Shown piece after piece: positions 9,681 through 16,711 of a stretch of DNA of 23,218 nt. Source of the stretch: a virus. Numbering within the stretch: the first letter of the stretch is position 1; each line of letters starts with the position of its first letter. Position numbers and translations under genes: made by a program. The DNA lies in the IMG/VR virus record IMGVR_UViG_3300025886_000170, positions 1-23,218 of that record. One strand, given 5' to 3'. The notes under the pieces were generated by a model. The model saw nothing but the letters and a program-made list of their open reading frames with translations. It searched no databases and was not told the origin of the DNA.

Positions 9681-9759
9681 TATATAGTCCTTTGTTATTG
9701 TGTAGTTTTTTGTCGCAACGTGCGATTAGTTGGAACTTTTTTAATTAGAGTTGGAACTT
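9554..9759. other. Candidate attP region: four direct 11-bp repeats
   Basis: AGTTGGAACTT occurs at 9554-9564, 9600-9610, 9728-9738 and 9749-9759, all in the same orientation. The last copy is part of the 15-bp palindrome GTTGGAACTTCCAAC (9750-9764). Pairs are 46 and 21 bases apart and flank a 117-bp interval that holds the inverted repeats GATAAC-5-GTTATC (9616-9632) and GGCAG-11-CTGCC (9643-9663). Two copies lie in the small gene, one is non-coding and one overlaps the integrase stop. Paired arm sites flanking a core next to the integrase gene is the layout of tyrosine-integrase attP sites. The core itself is not identified. Confidence 0.5.
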
Positions 9760-10829
9760 CCAACCCCTGTCTGCTCACTATTTGATACGGATAACGCCCT
9801 CCTTTTGTCAAACATTTTAATATAGCGACTCGCCTCAACAAGGGTCGAGTGACCCAACCAGGACATAATGGCTGTGGCTGACCCGTTGTTGGCAGCAATC
9901 TCCATGTCCCTGCTTTTTCTCAGGCCATGCGCTGTCTTGCCTTCAACACCCGCCGCCGATGCCTGTCGGCTGAACCAGCTTGATGCGCCTTTGACTGCCC
10001 TTGTCCTTGGTATGAGGTGGCTGTACTTAATGCCGCCGGTGACAATGTAGGTCATGTGCTTGTCAGGCTGTGCCTCAATCGCTTTGTGCAATAGGTCTAG
10101 GTCGCGCTTAAACGATTGTGCAAAGTGCGGCAATTCACGGTCAAACGGTATCTCAACTAACGTGCCTGTCTTCGACCGCCGGTATGACAGCCAGCCACCG
10201 GGGCGTATGCTGCCTGGCCCAAGTCGGACAGCGTCAACCATGCTTGCGCCGGTCCAGTACAGCAACTCAAAGGCCATTCTAGGGTGTGTGTTCAGCGCGT
10301 GATGATTGCGGAACATCTCAATGTCATCGTGTGTCCACGGTATATGCCCGTCACTCTTTTCAACAGGCGCACGAACCATGTCCTTTGACGGGTCCACTTT
10401 CAGCGCATCGATGTGCATGAGATATTTGCAGAACCCGCGCCACATTTTAAGCTGCGTGTGTTGTGCGTGGCCGTGATAGTTCTTGAGGTCAGCGCGGATA
10501 ACATCCGGCGTTAATGCTCTTTCACTGCCAGCGGTCTCCCTGATTCGTTCTAGGGCACGGCGGCGTACACCTTGAGTAAGCGGTGCCATAGTGGTGAAGT
10601 GCGAACTGGCAATATACTTGGACACGGCACTGGCCAAACTGCCCTTGATGATTGGCCGCACTGGCTCGACACCCGCTAGGTCAGTGTATGCTTTGAGGAA
10701 CTGTACGCTGCCCATTGGCGCGTCAGGCATCGGTGTTCCCTTCTGCCCTTTTGGCCGGTAATACCAGCGCGGGTTGCCTGACTTATATTCGCCGGAGCGG
10801 TTCAGATGTTTAAGTCGTATTCCCCGCAT
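9741..10829 (-). CDS. int: Tyrosine recombinase (phage integrase), first catalytic Arg replaced by Ser
   Basis: The protein has 362 residues. The N-terminal about 60 residues are an arm-binding-like segment, then a core-binding SAM-like region (about 63-150), then the catalytic domain. Catalytic positions seen are Lys220 (YRRSKTG), His301 and Arg304 (HGLRK), His327 (WLGHST) and nucleophile Tyr336 (ASRYIKM). At the motif normally reading TGxR, this protein reads TGASMVD, so Ser196 stands where the first active-site Arg is expected; one base change (AGC to AGA/AGG) would restore Arg. Family members integrate and excise phage DNA at att sites. The excisionase-like gene overlaps the start by 28 bases, and candidate arm repeats lie at the 3' end. 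The family call is firm; activity is open. Confidence 0.85.
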   Translation of the reverse strand: MRGIRLKHLNRSGEYKSGNPRWYYRPKGQKGTPMPDAPMGSVQFLKAYTDLAGVEPVRPIIKGSLASAVSKYIASSHFTTMAPLTQGVRRRALERIRETAGSERALTPDVIRADLKNYHGHAQHTQLKMWRGFCKYLMHIDALKVDPSKDMVRAPVEKSDGHIPWTHDDIEMFRNHHALNTHPRMAFELLYWTGASMVDAVRLGPGSIRPGGWLSYRRSKTGTLVEIPFDRELPHFAQSFKRDLDLLHKAIEAQPDKHMTYIVTGGIKYSHLIPRTRAVKGASSWFSRQASAAGVEGKTAHGLRKSRDMEIAANNGSATAIMSWLGHSTLVEASRYIKMFDKRRALSVSNSEQTGVGSSNSN

Positions 10830-11338: not shown

Positions 11339-12133
11339 TTACTTATTGGAACTTATGACCCCAGCTTTGATAAGGCGTTTGACATAGTTGCGGGTTGAGG
11401 ATGGGTGCCATTTGAAGTCCTCTAACAAGTCAGGGTCAGCCGCTTTACGTGGCGTCAAGATACCAATTTTGTTAAGTTCACTGGCCATTTCGCGGTACGA
11501 CATGTCTTGCTTTACGAATGCTTTAAACAGGTTCTCTAACTGCGTGGCATACACCAGCGCCTTGCGAGCATTTGCGGCATTACCAGCCAGCGATGCCTCT
11601 GTTGTATTGCTTGAGCCTAGCTTATTTATTGTGCGTCCGCTCTTAGTAACATAGCTGCCCTTCTCGGCAATCTCGGCTTGGATGCGGTCCAACGACATCT
11701 TGGTACGTGCTTTAATTTCAGTACGTTCCATGTCAGCAACAGCGGCCAACAAGCCGACCGTCTTATGGTCTAAAAGAGGATTATCAACAGCCACAAATTT
11801 TACTTTGCCAGTTGCTACTTGCTTGTCTAGAAAGCGTAGCCCTTCCCAAGTTGTGCGCGACAAGCGGCTGACAGAGTACACCACCATAGTCGCGCCAGAC
11901 TTGCGCGCATAGTTAATGCAGTTCTGCAAGCCTTTACGCATATCCCAAGGCGTACCGGCACTGCATTCATCTTCAAACCATTCTACAGTGTAGTCACCGC
12001 CATTGAGGTAAGCCTTGATTGCGGCCCGCTGGTTCTCGTTGTCCTGTACCTTAGTAGACACACGCACATAGGCCGCGAACTTGCCAGTGTGCATGGCACC
12101 GTGGTCAGGTCTGGTTTGGATAAGGCCGGTCAT
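11339..12133 (-). CDS. Serine recombinase (resolvase/invertase family)
   Basis: The protein has 264 residues. The N-terminal catalytic domain shows AAYVRVSTKVQDNENQR (nucleophile Ser26, Arg24), 'DMRKGLQNCINYARKSGATM', 'VYSVSRLSRTTWEGL' and the E-helix 'LLAAVADMERTEIKARTKMS'. The DRLSR motif reads SRLSR, so the usual Asp is Ser. The C-terminal part 'YREMASELNKIGILTPR' plus 'WHPSSTRNYVKRLIKAG' resembles the short recombinase DNA-binding domain. The length lies between small resolvases (about 190) and large phage serine integrases (about 450 or more). Start ATG 12133 overlaps the upstream stop (ATGA). It could invert or resolve DNA or serve as a second integration enzyme; no obvious inverted repeats flank the tail-fibre genes. 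Confidence 0.85.
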   Translation of the reverse strand: MTGLIQTRPDHGAMHTGKFAAYVRVSTKVQDNENQRAAIKAYLNGGDYTVEWFEDECSAGTPWDMRKGLQNCINYARKSGATMVVYSVSRLSRTTWEGLRFLDKQVATGKVKFVAVDNPLLDHKTVGLLAAVADMERTEIKARTKMSLDRIQAEIAEKGSYVTKSGRTINKLGSSNTTEASLAGNAANARKALVYATQLENLFKAFVKQDMSYREMASELNKIGILTPRKAADPDLLEDFKWHPSSTRNYVKRLIKAGVISSNK

Positions 12134-14227: not shown

Positions 14228-14415
14228 GCAACGCCACCAACGAAGCCATGCGGATATGCCAGGAGTGCGGGGGCACCGGCACCATACTGATAGAACTGTA
14301 TCATCGGCAGAGCTTTGACGTTGATAGCGGATACATAGAGGAGCGGGTCGAGACCTGTACAGACTGTCTCGGCAGTGGTGAGCGCCTGACAGACGATGAG
14401 GATGACGAGGAATGA
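14224..14415 (+). CDS. Small zinc-ribbon protein with two CxxCxGxG motifs
   Basis: The protein has 63 residues; ATG 14224 overlaps the previous stop. CQECGGTG and CTDCLGSG are two copies of the DnaJ-type CxxCxGxG zinc-binding motif, which together bind one zinc ion. The C-terminus is acidic (TDDEDDEE). Such mini zinc proteins are common in phage early operons and probably mediate protein or nucleic-acid contacts; no enzymatic motif exists. It is flanked by the nuclease and replication genes, overlapping both neighbours by ATGA. Confidence 0.7.
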   Translation: MSNATNEAMRICQECGGTGTILIELYHRQSFDVDSGYIEERVETCTDCLGSGERLTDDEDDEE

Positions 14416-14642
14416 CCCGTCCGATTCAGCGCCAACACTACACCACCGGCCACATCACCTGGGAACTGTCCCAGAACCCTCGGCACGACTATTACACATT
14501 CGCCCTGATAGCAGGAGAAGCACCAGAACAACGCAGCCGCAAGCCGCTATTCACAGCCACACTGAACAAGCAAGATGCTAAGAACATGGCAACAGAACTA
14601 CGCCGCCTCGCAAACCACTTTGATGAGCTATACGATGCGTAA
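14412..14642 (+). CDS. Hypothetical early protein
   Basis: The protein has 76 residues; ATG 14412 overlaps the previous stop, and the end overlaps the initiator gene by 8 bases, so the frame is supported by tight packing. It reads as a beta-rich first half (HYTTGHITWELSQNPRHDYY plus TFALIAG) and an alpha-helical end (QDAKNMATELRRLANHFDEL). There are no cysteines and no membrane segment. No family is recognised. It may be a small accessory factor of replication by position only. Confidence 0.55.
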   Translation: MTRPIQRQHYTTGHITWELSQNPRHDYYTFALIAGEAPEQRSRKPLFTATLNKQDAKNMATELRRLANHFDELYDA

Positions 14643-15636
14643 GTCAGCCCTGTCACCAGACCCAATAAGGGATGCGCCAGATGGCCACGGTGAGTACCAA
14701 GCACCCGGTCCATTCTGTCTCATACCGCCCAGAGCAACAGTGGATACACGCCTACACAAGTACGCCTCAACATTCGGTGTACTCGCCTTCGTCTGCTCCT
14801 ACGCCAAAGCACACACCGGAGTGTTCTTCATGAACCAACTTACAGTGGCTGAAGCCATCGGCATCTCTCAGCAAGCAGTACACAAACACATGAAGAAACT
14901 GGTCGAGTACGGCTACATCCAGAAGATACGCAAAGAAGATAACAGACGAGCATGGGGCAAAAGAGGCGCAGTCTGGAGGGTAATCTATGACCCCAGAATG
15001 TCACTGCAAGAGGTGCTGAACACCACACCAAAGACCGAGGAAGAACTCACAAGAGAGGCACAAGATACAATGGCAGTAGCTAACCGAGGAGCCAAAGGAC
15101 AGCTTACAAAGCAGCGCTCTAAGCCTGTGGATAAGTACGATAGTCAACAACCTGCAGGTTGTAATAGTGATGAAGGCTATGTACGAAAAAACAACCTGCA
15201 GGTTGTACGAAAAAACAACCCGGAGGTTGTTAGTAGCAACAATATAGAACTAGAAGATAAGAATAGTACAAATGGTTTTGTTGAAAAAAAGAAAAAAAAA
15301 GAAAAACATGTACGCAACGAACACCAACCAGAACGAGCCTGTCGAGCCATCTGTGCAGCCTACGCCGCCGTCTTCCAAGAAGCAACCGGGATACGCTGGC
15401 AATACGACGACCGGCAGGTATCGATAGCAGCGGCAGTGCTGAACCTTGGCTACACCGAGGACACGTTCATTGCAGACGCCACGGCAACAGCGGAGTGGTT
15501 CATAGGTCAGGACAAGAAGCCGCCGGTATCGCTTGCATGGTTCACTCGTAAGGCTGAGAACAAGGCAGGACACAAGCCACAAGGTCCAGACATCAACGCC
15601 ATTCTAGGCAAGGTCACGAGTGCTGTACGATGGTAG
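14635..15636 (+). CDS. Replication initiator-like protein (O-type) containing the putative origin
   Basis: The protein has 333 residues from ATG 14635; the longer frame from 14575 overlaps the previous gene too far. Residues about 25-105 form a winged-helix domain (ATVDTRLHKYASTFGVLAFV, then NQLTVAEAIGISQQAVHKHM plus KKLVEYGYIQKIRKEDNRRAW). Residues about 130-225 are a polar, Asn/Lys-rich linker encoded by the iteron and A-rich DNA. Residues about 227-333 (RACRAICAAYAAVFQEATGI, then DKKPPVSLAWFTRKAENKAG) are a helical C-terminal domain. A DNA-binding head, an origin-encoded linker and a helicase-loading tail is the layout of lambda O. Its binding sites would be the palindromes in its own gene. 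Confidence 0.7.
   Translation: MRKSALSPDPIRDAPDGHGEYQAPGPFCLIPPRATVDTRLHKYASTFGVLAFVCSYAKAHTGVFFMNQLTVAEAIGISQQAVHKHMKKLVEYGYIQKIRKEDNRRAWGKRGAVWRVIYDPRMSLQEVLNTTPKTEEELTREAQDTMAVANRGAKGQLTKQRSKPVDKYDSQQPAGCNSDEGYVRKNNLQVVRKNNPEVVSSNNIELEDKNSTNGFVEKKKKKEKHVRNEHQPERACRAICAAYAAVFQEATGIRWQYDDRQVSIAAAVLNLGYTEDTFIADATATAEWFIGQDKKPPVSLAWFTRKAENKAGHKPQGPDINAILGKVTSAVRW
15147..15312 (+). other. Putative replication origin: palindromic iterons plus A-rich tract
   Basis: The palindrome ACAACCTGCAGGTTGT occurs at 15147-15162 and 15191-15206, and a third copy with altered centre (ACAACCCGGAGGTTGT) at 15215-15230. The last two lie in a 24-bp direct repeat starting GTACGAAAAAACAACC (15181 and 15205). Copy 1 is read in a different codon frame from copies 2 and 3, so conservation is at DNA level. 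About 80 bases of AT-rich, A-run-rich DNA follow (15231-15312), suitable as an unwinding element. All of it lies inside the initiator gene. Confidence 0.65.
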
Positions 15637-15805
15637 TGTACAAACACCAGTCGTTCCATTGGTGCCTGTACACCAGAATAATTGCGTGGCGTGACCGGCG
15701 CGTCCGGCCAGCGCGAGAACCGCCCTTAGGCCCCCCCACCCCCCGTCACGTATAGGGGGGCCCTCCCCGAAATATTTTCCCATTTTCCACTGAAAGGAAA
15801 TTCTA
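15637..15805 (+). promoter_or_regulatory. Intergenic region with GC-tract hairpin before the SSB/terminase operon
   Basis: This 169-base gap contains no convincing gene. At 15729-15768 it holds long C and G tracts; CCCCCC 15739-15744 can pair with GGGGGG 15755-15760 around a 10-base loop, followed by CCCTCCCC and an AT-rich stretch. A smaller GGTG-6-CACC inverted repeat lies at 15660-15673. There is no clear T-run, so a standard intrinsic terminator is doubtful. It may be a packaging site, a promoter region or both. Confidence 0.4.
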
Positions 15806-15976
15806 ATGAGTACTGAGCCTGAGAAGAGTTTGTTCCACGATGCTTTGAACCCGAAGCCGATGGGACCGATGTTTGATAACCTGGTTACCTTTTACGACAG
15901 ATTGCCTGACGAGGCTCGTGAGCGGGTTCGTAAGAGTTTGGCGAGTAAGATTTTGAAGGAGAGCGGCAATGAGTAA
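15806..15976 (+). CDS. 56-residue hypothetical protein
   Basis: The ORF runs from ATG 15806, with AAAGGAAA 7 bases upstream, to TAA 15976; it overlaps the next start by 8 bases. The sequence MSTEPEKSLFHDALNPKPMG is polar, followed by an amphipathic helix (PDEARERVRKSLASKILKES). No family is recognised. It is the first gene of the packaging operon. The codons are T- and G-rich (gtt, cgt, ttg), unlike the C- and A-rich codons of the preceding operon. Confidence 0.6.
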   Translation: MSTEPEKSLFHDALNPKPMGPMFDNLVTFYDRLPDEARERVRKSLASKILKESGNE

Positions 15977-16262
15977 GCGATACAGAGTTGTACAGGCCAA
16001 GGACATTCCTGGTCGAGACAAGCCCATGTGGCTGAGAATAGGCACTGCGTTTGAGAAGGAGGGCAAGATGCGGATTAAGTTGGACGTATCCCCATTGCCG
16101 AATAAGGACAGCGAGGTTTGGCTGAGTTTGTTTGAGGACGATGGTGCGGGCGCTGGAGCGGCTGTTGCTGCGGGTGGTGGAGCCACTGGTGCTTTCTCTG
16201 CGCCGATTGGTGAGGCTGCGGCTGCACCGAGGTCTGACCTAGAAGATAGCATACCGTTCTGA
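15969..16262 (+). CDS. SSB-like small protein with acidic IPF tail
   Basis: The protein has 97 residues. The first about 55 residues (KRYRVVQAKDIPGRDKPMWL plus RIGTAFEKEGKMRIKLDVSP) look like a small beta-barrel with a 'WLRIGTAF...LDxxPLP' pattern found in short phage and plasmid proteins. A Gly/Ala-rich linker follows (about 58-85). The end is RSDLEDSIPF, very close to the acidic DDIPF tip by which bacterial SSB recruits replication and repair enzymes. Globular domain plus flexible Gly linker plus acidic IPF tip is SSB architecture, and the gene directly follows the origin region. ssDNA binding itself is inferred. Confidence 0.6.
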   Translation: MSKRYRVVQAKDIPGRDKPMWLRIGTAFEKEGKMRIKLDVSPLPNKDSEVWLSLFEDDGAGAGAAVAAGGGATGAFSAPIGEAAAAPRSDLEDSIPF

Positions 16263-16711
16263 TGGCTGAGAAACCGAAGAGGCGGGGGCGTACTGGTCCT
16301 CGCCCGCCGAAGATGGCGATGGGTGCTATTACCAAGCGGTTGCGTGGGTCGAGCATCATTTACGACCACCGTGATGAGTTGGCCTTGGAGCTTCTAGGTT
16401 TGGCCTCTGCGAAATTGACTGATGTTGTTTCGTGGGATGATGACGGCAAGGCGCGGATTAGGGCGTTCAAGGATGTTCCTGAGCATGTGAAGGCGGCGAT
16501 TAAGAAGGTGAAGATAACGCCTACGCAGCACGGGGATATTATGGAGTTTGAGATGGTGGACAAGGTGCGGGTTATGCAGATGTTGGCCAAGAGTGCTGGT
16601 CTGCTTGATAGCGAGAAGGTGGTGGATAAGCCGTCTGTGATTTCAATTGATATGATTATGCCGGAGGAACCGGGGAAGACTGAAACCAAGGAGAGGACAG
16701 AAGATGAGTGA
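16262..16711 (+). CDS. Terminase small subunit-like protein
   Basis: The protein has 149 residues; ATG 16262 overlaps the previous stop. The N-terminus is very basic (KPKRRGRTGPRPPK). The central and C-terminal part 'VPEHVKAAIKKVKITPTQHG' followed by 'VDKVRVMQMLAKSAGLLDSE' matches the helical oligomerisation part of Terminase_2-type small subunits (xxaI...K..ALxxLgkxxGLl). Small subunits recognise the packaging site and regulate the large subunit. The large terminase is three genes downstream in the same operon, with two other genes between, which is less usual. Confidence 0.72.
   Translation: MAEKPKRRGRTGPRPPKMAMGAITKRLRGSSIIYDHRDELALELLGLASAKLTDVVSWDDDGKARIRAFKDVPEHVKAAIKKVKITPTQHGDIMEFEMVDKVRVMQMLAKSAGLLDSEKVVDKPSVISIDMIMPEEPGKTETKERTEDE

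Follow-up and report, generated by a model that had tools for sequence, protein, structure and literature searches.

The stretch of DNA analysed here, which comprises 23,218 nucleotides (IMG/VR virus record IMGVR_UViG_3300025886_000170, positions 1 to 23,218) and is referred to as the window, carries on its plus strand a gene for a putative replication initiator of 333 amino acids (14635..15636). The linker-coding part of this gene contains three palindromes, preceded by a DnaA box and followed by an AT-rich stretch, which we discuss here as a very probable origin of phage replication. Judged by its sequence, the window represents part of the genome of an uncultured marine phage that is kin to the OM43 phage MEP301, since the TerL proteins of the two share 66% identity over 96%; MEP301 is a seawater phage of the OM43 methylotroph clade, and going by this kinship, the host is probably a marine Gram-negative bacterium. 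The ATG at 14635 (MRKSALSPDP...) is common to all close relatives having the complete gene, while the longer open reading frame from 14575 is unconserved, which places the gene start at 14635 and not at 14575. The initial annotation, made from the sequence alone, had called the gene initiator-like, which was borne out by two lines of evidence. The window protein matches the Pfam domain PF13730 (HTH_36) with 28.8 bits, compared to a curated cut-off of 25, and the PHROG replication initiation families 270, 428, 391, 345 and 678 give weak matches over the N-terminal head (best 4e-10), some of which extend into the linker.

Searches of viral contigs yielded at first 9 close relatives and then, using alignments, 80 loci, which together with the loci of an earlier scan gave 76 distinct initiator proteins down to about 35% identity. 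HTH_36 was matched by all 70 family members scanned at E up to 0.01. The initiator protein had no match in 50,697 phage genomes, and the search of genome contigs returned a single distant match (L098), which is located in a Flavobacteriaceae metagenome-assembled genome. The contig end of one relative, L021 (IMGVR_UViG_3300040985_000670), consists of a sequencing adapter (CTGTCTCTTATACACATCT) and is an assembly artefact.

The palindromes, in the following termed iterons, have no strand and measure 16 bp each. Iterons 1 (15147..15162) and 2 (15191..15206) both read ACAACCTGCAGGTTGT and are symmetric at 16 of 16 positions, and iteron 3 (ACAACCCGGAGGTTGT, 15215..15230), which follows iteron 2 at a distance of 24 bp, has perfect arms and an imperfect centre. 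Most of iterons 2 and 3 is contained in a 24-bp direct repeat on the plus strand (15180-15203 and 15204-15227, together 15180..15227), whose two units are identical at 22 of 24 positions. Iteron 1 is read in frame 2 of the gene and translated as QQPAGC, iterons 2 and 3 are read in frame 1 and translated as NNLQVV and NNPEVV, respectively. The coordinates and symmetry of the three palindromes, the direct repeat, the deviating frame of copy 1 and a stretch of about 80 AT-rich bases behind the repeats had all been described in the initial annotation and could be confirmed. In the 23-kb window only 4 perfect 6+4+6 palindromes exist, three of which have one half-site in common and lie within 84 bp, and not one of 300 first-order Markov simulations of the window produced at least two palindromes with the same half-site inside 200 bp.

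What the initial annotation had overlooked is a perfect DnaA box (TTATCCACA) on the minus strand at 15126..15134, the only exact copy in the window, which encodes PVDK on the plus strand. Of the 76 genes, 67 carry an exact DnaA box. Its distance to iteron 1, which it precedes, is usually 18-21 bp, and 31 bp in L054-L056; in some genes (L026, L039, L040, L042, L053) the box is duplicated or triplicated. The DnaA box is not a by-product of a conserved peptide, because the codon choice at the box is far from expectation: the VD[KN] of the linker is encoded as GTGGATAA in 30 of 32 cases (10% expected from the codon usage of the family) and the proline preceding it as CCT in 23 of 23 (20% expected), while elsewhere VD is encoded by GTGGAT in 1 of 27 cases. 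These counts cover 30 clusters related by descent and hence do not represent independent trials. Moreover, L058 carries two DnaA boxes in reverse orientation, which are read in different frames as VIHK and SYPQ.

On the 3' side of the iterons lies an AT-rich stretch without strand (15231..15310), a probable DNA unwinding element. The AT content amounts to 77.5% over about 15230-15309, and the segment 15241-15300 (80% AT) is the AT-richest 60-mer of the whole window and among its two least stable ones. This property is shared with the relatives, for which the mean AT content over 48 genes is about 0.49 in the last iteron, then 0.74, 0.75 and 0.67 per 20-bp step, and then returns to about 0.45.

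At least three palindromes of equal size are found at the same place of the linker in nearly all of the 76 distinct relatives. The 48 genes with three clear sites show spacings of (44,24), (34,24), (33,24), (32,24) or near these; the distance between copies 2 and 3 is 24 bp in 46 of them, the one between copies 1 and 2 is 32, 33, 34, 44 or 45 bp, and as a consequence of this varied first spacing copy 1 is read in all three frames. A rule of helical phasing between sites 1 and 2 (32-34 or 44-45 bp, with no distance in between) was considered and dropped, because a second initiator family, described below, has a spacing of 36 bp. A distant subclade (L067-L069, L073-L077, L081, L083, L084, L086, L090) has four looser sites at gene offsets of 511-608, the first two of which abut (16 bp apart), with half-sites CTTGT and CTAGT.

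According to their half-sites, the iterons fall into type A (GGTTGT; window, L015, L016 and L041), type B (GGTTAT; L017 and L018), type C (GCTAAT; L020, L021 and L047) and type D (GCTTGT, innermost base loose), to which the great majority belongs. Types A, B and C have the spacing of 44 and 24 bp in common, and copy 1 is translated in these types as QQPAGC, LLPAGY and TLAPAN, and copy 2 as NNLQVV, YNPQVI and YKLQLM, respectively. Copies that are read in different frames thus switch type together, from which we conclude that selection acts on the DNA. This had been proposed in the initial annotation from the frames of the window alone, along with the expectation that related phages would conserve the iterons at the DNA level; indeed, they are conserved within each type and switch in concert between types.

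A structure model based on 70 sequences was usable for the head and the tail of the initiator, whereas a model based on 9 sequences was poor (predicted local distance difference test, pLDDT, of 43). The model and fold matches suggest a winged-helix DNA-binding head at about residues 33-120 (14731..14994, plus strand), with a pLDDT of about 80-90 over most of residues 31-100, helices at 44-56, 68-75 and 79-92, and strands at 95-99 and 113-116. The last of these helices (residues 79-92, QQAVHKHMKKLVEY, 14869..14910, plus strand) is the putative recognition helix, in which positions 80 and 84 co-vary with the half-sites of the iterons. Comparison of the head fold returned many winged-helix DNA-binding proteins (MarR, CRP, LexA, TFE) with Z scores of 8.5 and below, none of which stands out; they include 4pt7/4pql ('Structure of initiator', 'N-terminal domain of DNA binding protein') with Z 8.1-8.2. 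Linker residues 151-230 have a pLDDT below 50 and are predicted to be disordered; residues 171-199, which are encoded by the iterons, fall into the centre of this region. The tail domain (residues 233-331, 15331..15627, plus strand) is predicted to consist of five helices; it had no sequence match in the PDB or in PHROGs and probably contacts the helicase or primase machinery of the host.

The half-site types are matched by the residues of the recognition helix, which are Q80/K84 in type A, P80/K84 in type B, S80/Q84 in type C and Q80/Q84 in type D. K84 occurs together with an inner G and Q84 with an inner C, Q80 with TGT, P80 with TAT and S80 with AAT. The chimeric gene L047 separates the helix from the remainder of the head: outside residues 73-90 its head is type-B-like (132 of 148 residues identical to L018 vs 111 of 148 to L021), while 17 of the 18 residues at 73-90 are type C, as are its iterons. 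After recording this rule, we scanned DNA, blind to the protein, for three type A palindromes, which returned the known members and 11 contigs with a different initiator and another tail. The initiator of this second family is distantly homologous to the window family, in head and linker only (hhalign 98.7%, E 2.5e-16), and its helix ISQQAV[SA]K corresponds to Q80/K84, as the rule predicted. Its iterons are spaced 36 and 24 bp, with one in another frame in L112, and a DnaA box is present in 10 of the 11 cases 32 bp upstream, in one case additionally 20 bp upstream. At the level of sequence, the second family is one out-of-family confirmation of the relation between helix and half-site. The corresponding scans for type B and C arrays, for which the predictions were also written beforehand, gave only known members or unrelated repeats and no new initiators; support for the code from outside the clade is therefore limited to type A.

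The iteron type tracks the head and the linker and not the tail. The window head is 94-98% identical to the other type A heads, while its tail comes nearest to type C tails (92 and 91%), with no more than 84-88% identity to the tails of other type A genes; L047, in which the anchor motif is missing, was left out of these tail identities. L103 and L106 combine type C iterons with the other tail type. We tentatively propose, rating the chances slightly below even, that specificity is carried by an exchangeable cassette, composed of the recognition helix, the DnaA box, the iterons and the AT-rich stretch and read through a short residue code (K or Q at position 84 for inner G or C; Q, P or S at position 80 for outer TGT, TAT or AAT). 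Phages might thereby switch origin compatibility by changing helix and iterons jointly, keeping or swapping the host-contacting tail, with an origin that would depend on host DnaA.

Taken together, comparison strongly supports the reading of the palindrome array as an origin, and with high probability the phage carries its replication origin within the linker-coding part of its own initiator gene. We favour this reading because the iterons are conserved as DNA in any frame, are matched to the recognition helix, and lie beside a conserved DnaA box and an AT-rich stretch. In the mechanism that we infer, every palindrome would be bound by the winged-helix head, which would probably act as a dimer and place one recognition helix on either half-site (the half-site centres are 10 bp apart). 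Three bound iterons and one host DnaA molecule on the DnaA box would then form a compact complex, which would open the AT-rich stretch on the 3' side, whereupon the tail would recruit the replicative helicase or the primase of the host. Binding, dimer state, strand opening, dependence on DnaA, the role of the tail and the start of replication at the iterons are all deduced from these patterns.

Alternatively, the palindromes could be operators inside the gene, at which the head acts to repress or tune either its own gene or the early operon, with replication starting elsewhere. MarR-like winged helices typically bind palindromic operators, and the head resembles MarR-type folds. However, about 510-600 bp separate the sites from the gene start, a scan of 14400-16300 gave no sigma-70-like promoter, and a DnaA box at a conserved fixed distance as well as a conserved AT-rich stretch are features of an origin, so that we consider a purely regulatory array improbable; binding of the head to the palindromes could serve regulation and replication alike. 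The array could also be a site at which the initiator acts in partition, incompatibility or titration, similar to a centromere, and not a start site, given that plasmid iterons can, as is generally known, serve in copy control and incompatibility. Yet the scanned proteins of the window included none recognisable as a partition protein, and again the DnaA box and the AT-rich stretch adjoin the array, which makes this explanation even less probable than that of an operator.

Some peptides, among them KPQLV and NNLQVV, are found again in relatives, as would be the case if the palindromes had arisen by chance or followed from a repetitive, protein-conserved linker. This is refuted by the occurrence of the same DNA in all three frames across relatives, the joint change of copies in different frames, the extreme codon choice at the DnaA box, its reversal in L058, the outcome of the simulations (0/300) and the predicted disorder of the linker, and we attach next to no probability to it. 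Finally, a terminator scan flagged the palindromes on the minus strand with short T runs, as expected for RNA hairpins or antisense terminators, but the sites of many relatives have no adjoining T runs, and co-variation of the half-sites with a DNA-recognition helix is not predicted by a role in RNA; the chance that this explanation applies is accordingly minute.

Several observations weigh against an embedded origin or against the code associated with it. An exact DnaA box is absent at the respective place in 7 of the 76 genes, and L097 has a box with one mismatch. L098 (P80/R84) has TGT-ended half-sites and other spacers and is thus an exception at position 80, and L062 combines L84 with a type D half-site. 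The gene of the cultured phage MEP301, which is homologous in the head, contains neither palindromes nor a DnaA box, so that not every member of the wider family has an embedded origin. Furthermore, the minimum of the cumulative keto (G+T) skew is located at about 15800, which is about 600 bp 3' of the iterons and not at the iterons. The minimum lies at the same place also in L018, L041, L058, L059, L062, L068, L079 and L098, with the coding strand unchanged. Strand-biased replication is only one possible cause of this minimum, because the skew changes sign once more near 20 kb of the window.

The skew minimum coincides with a conserved non-coding block 3' of the initiator stop codon (15637-15800). 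Its first part has the structure TGTACA-N24-TGTACA with the loop ACGGTCG in most relatives, and the TGTACA pairs are invariant, without covariation. The second part comprises a C-run, CGTATA, a G-run and a conserved AAATATTTT motif, and resembles a sequence of L098 and the region at about 850-905 of the MEP301 record (L128), where MEP301 has no iterons. The block could be a cos site, a terminator, a promoter or a leading-strand start, which are indistinguishable here; inspection of contig ends for a cos site near 15750 revealed no consistent end.

Genes of the types DnaB, Pol A and IstB/DnaC were not recognised in six records of 23-34 kb, some of which are possibly incomplete, and to judge from the gene content this absence would fit a phage that uses the host replisome. 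For MEP301, too, the genome authors found no polymerase and inferred a reliance on the host (PMC8024684). Directly before terS, an open reading frame of 97 amino acids (15969-16262) ends in ...EDSIPF, similar to the acidic tip of single-stranded DNA-binding proteins, and it sits where MEP301 has an annotated protein of this kind (L128 2410-2700); it gave no Pfam or PHROG match. On the minus strand, the window additionally carries a tyrosine-type integrase (9741-10829) and a serine-recombinase-type protein (11339-12133) with a Resolvase domain and a weak Recombinase-domain match, with RecE-like and RecT-like genes alongside both recombinases. In two further contigs of 47 and 86 kb, intergenic ATTAGCAAAAGCTAAT repeats were observed (L126 1426-1479 and L127 4572-4625) with three DnaA boxes at a distance of 250-330 bp, which are possibly an iteron-type origin.

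The initial annotation had likened the order of head, origin-encoded linker and tail to that of lambda O, which is borne out by the comparative evidence. As in lambda, the iterons are located inside the initiator gene between head and tail, with an AT-rich stretch on the 3' side. The annotation had also regarded the protein as unrelated to lambda O in sequence, in agreement with a hhalign probability of 0.1% (E 0.56), and none of the 70 members matched PF04492 (Phage_rep_O). It had further considered the palindromic iteron a contrast to lambda, which we could not uphold, since lambda, too, has (imperfect) inverted repeats as iterons, to which O binds as a dimer (PMC5043065, PMC7466680). In the lambda record (L130), the four iterons are read in frames 0, 2, 2 and 1 of the O gene, and their arms are TCCCTC and GAGGGA, with a symmetry that is hidden in the 18-bp register. 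Palindromy and mixed frames are thus shared with lambda, because its iterons are inverted repeats read in three frames. Differences consist in the number and size of the iterons (four of 18-19 bp in lambda, three of 16 bp in the window) and in the DnaA box, no such sequence with up to one mismatch being present in the lambda O gene; in lambda, DnaA-box-like sites downstream of pO have been footprinted (PMC3985674). A gene for a lambda-P-like helicase loader was not detected by Pfam in the open reading frames next to the window initiator.

A related arrangement is known from RepA_N plasmids such as pSK41, in which a winged-helix N-terminal domain binds Rep boxes located centrally in rep, the origin encodes a dispensable linker, and the C-terminal domain is five-helical and DnaD-like (PMC5703833). 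In pPR9, a pfam13730 (HTH_36) N-terminal domain from a phage-like protein has replaced the N-terminal domain together with the origin, while the C-terminal domain was kept (PMC5703833), an exchange that follows the cassette logic of the window initiator and involves the same Pfam domain. The window resembles these plasmids in an origin that lies inside the initiator gene and encodes its linker. For the tail of the window protein, five helices are predicted, and no sequence in the PDB matched it. In contrast to RepA_N proteins, the 70 members did not match PF06970 at E up to 0.01, and in contrast to the window family, no DnaA boxes were detected in the staphylococcal plasmids (PMC5703833). Iteron plasmids (P1, F, pSC101, RK2) share the combination of iterons, DnaA box and AT-rich stretch, but their iterons are direct repeats outside the rep gene, whereas those of the window are palindromic and inside it. 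The PHROG initiator families 270, 428, 391, 345 and 678 differ in the tail, for which the window protein has no PHROG match.

Our analysis suggests that a widespread and for the most part uncultured group of marine phages without an annotated initiator (gp55 of MEP301 is listed as hypothetical) replicates with the assistance of DnaA, and provides a case in which reading frame, protein and origin use the same bases. The matched series of helices and origin sites, with at least four specificities, a chimera and an independent family, is apparently natural and makes the co-evolution of a winged-helix initiator with its embedded origin directly testable with few proteins and oligonucleotides. No description of this family, with a DnaA box in its coding sequence and its series of specificities, came up in a search of full texts, which was confined to open-access papers, and cultured HTH_36 phages were not surveyed for these features. 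In summary, the layout is known from lambda and some plasmids, and the head belongs to HTH_36 initiators that are already known from phages and pPR9, whereas the novelty appears to lie in the family, in a DnaA box that is part of the coding sequence and in the natural series of matched specificities.
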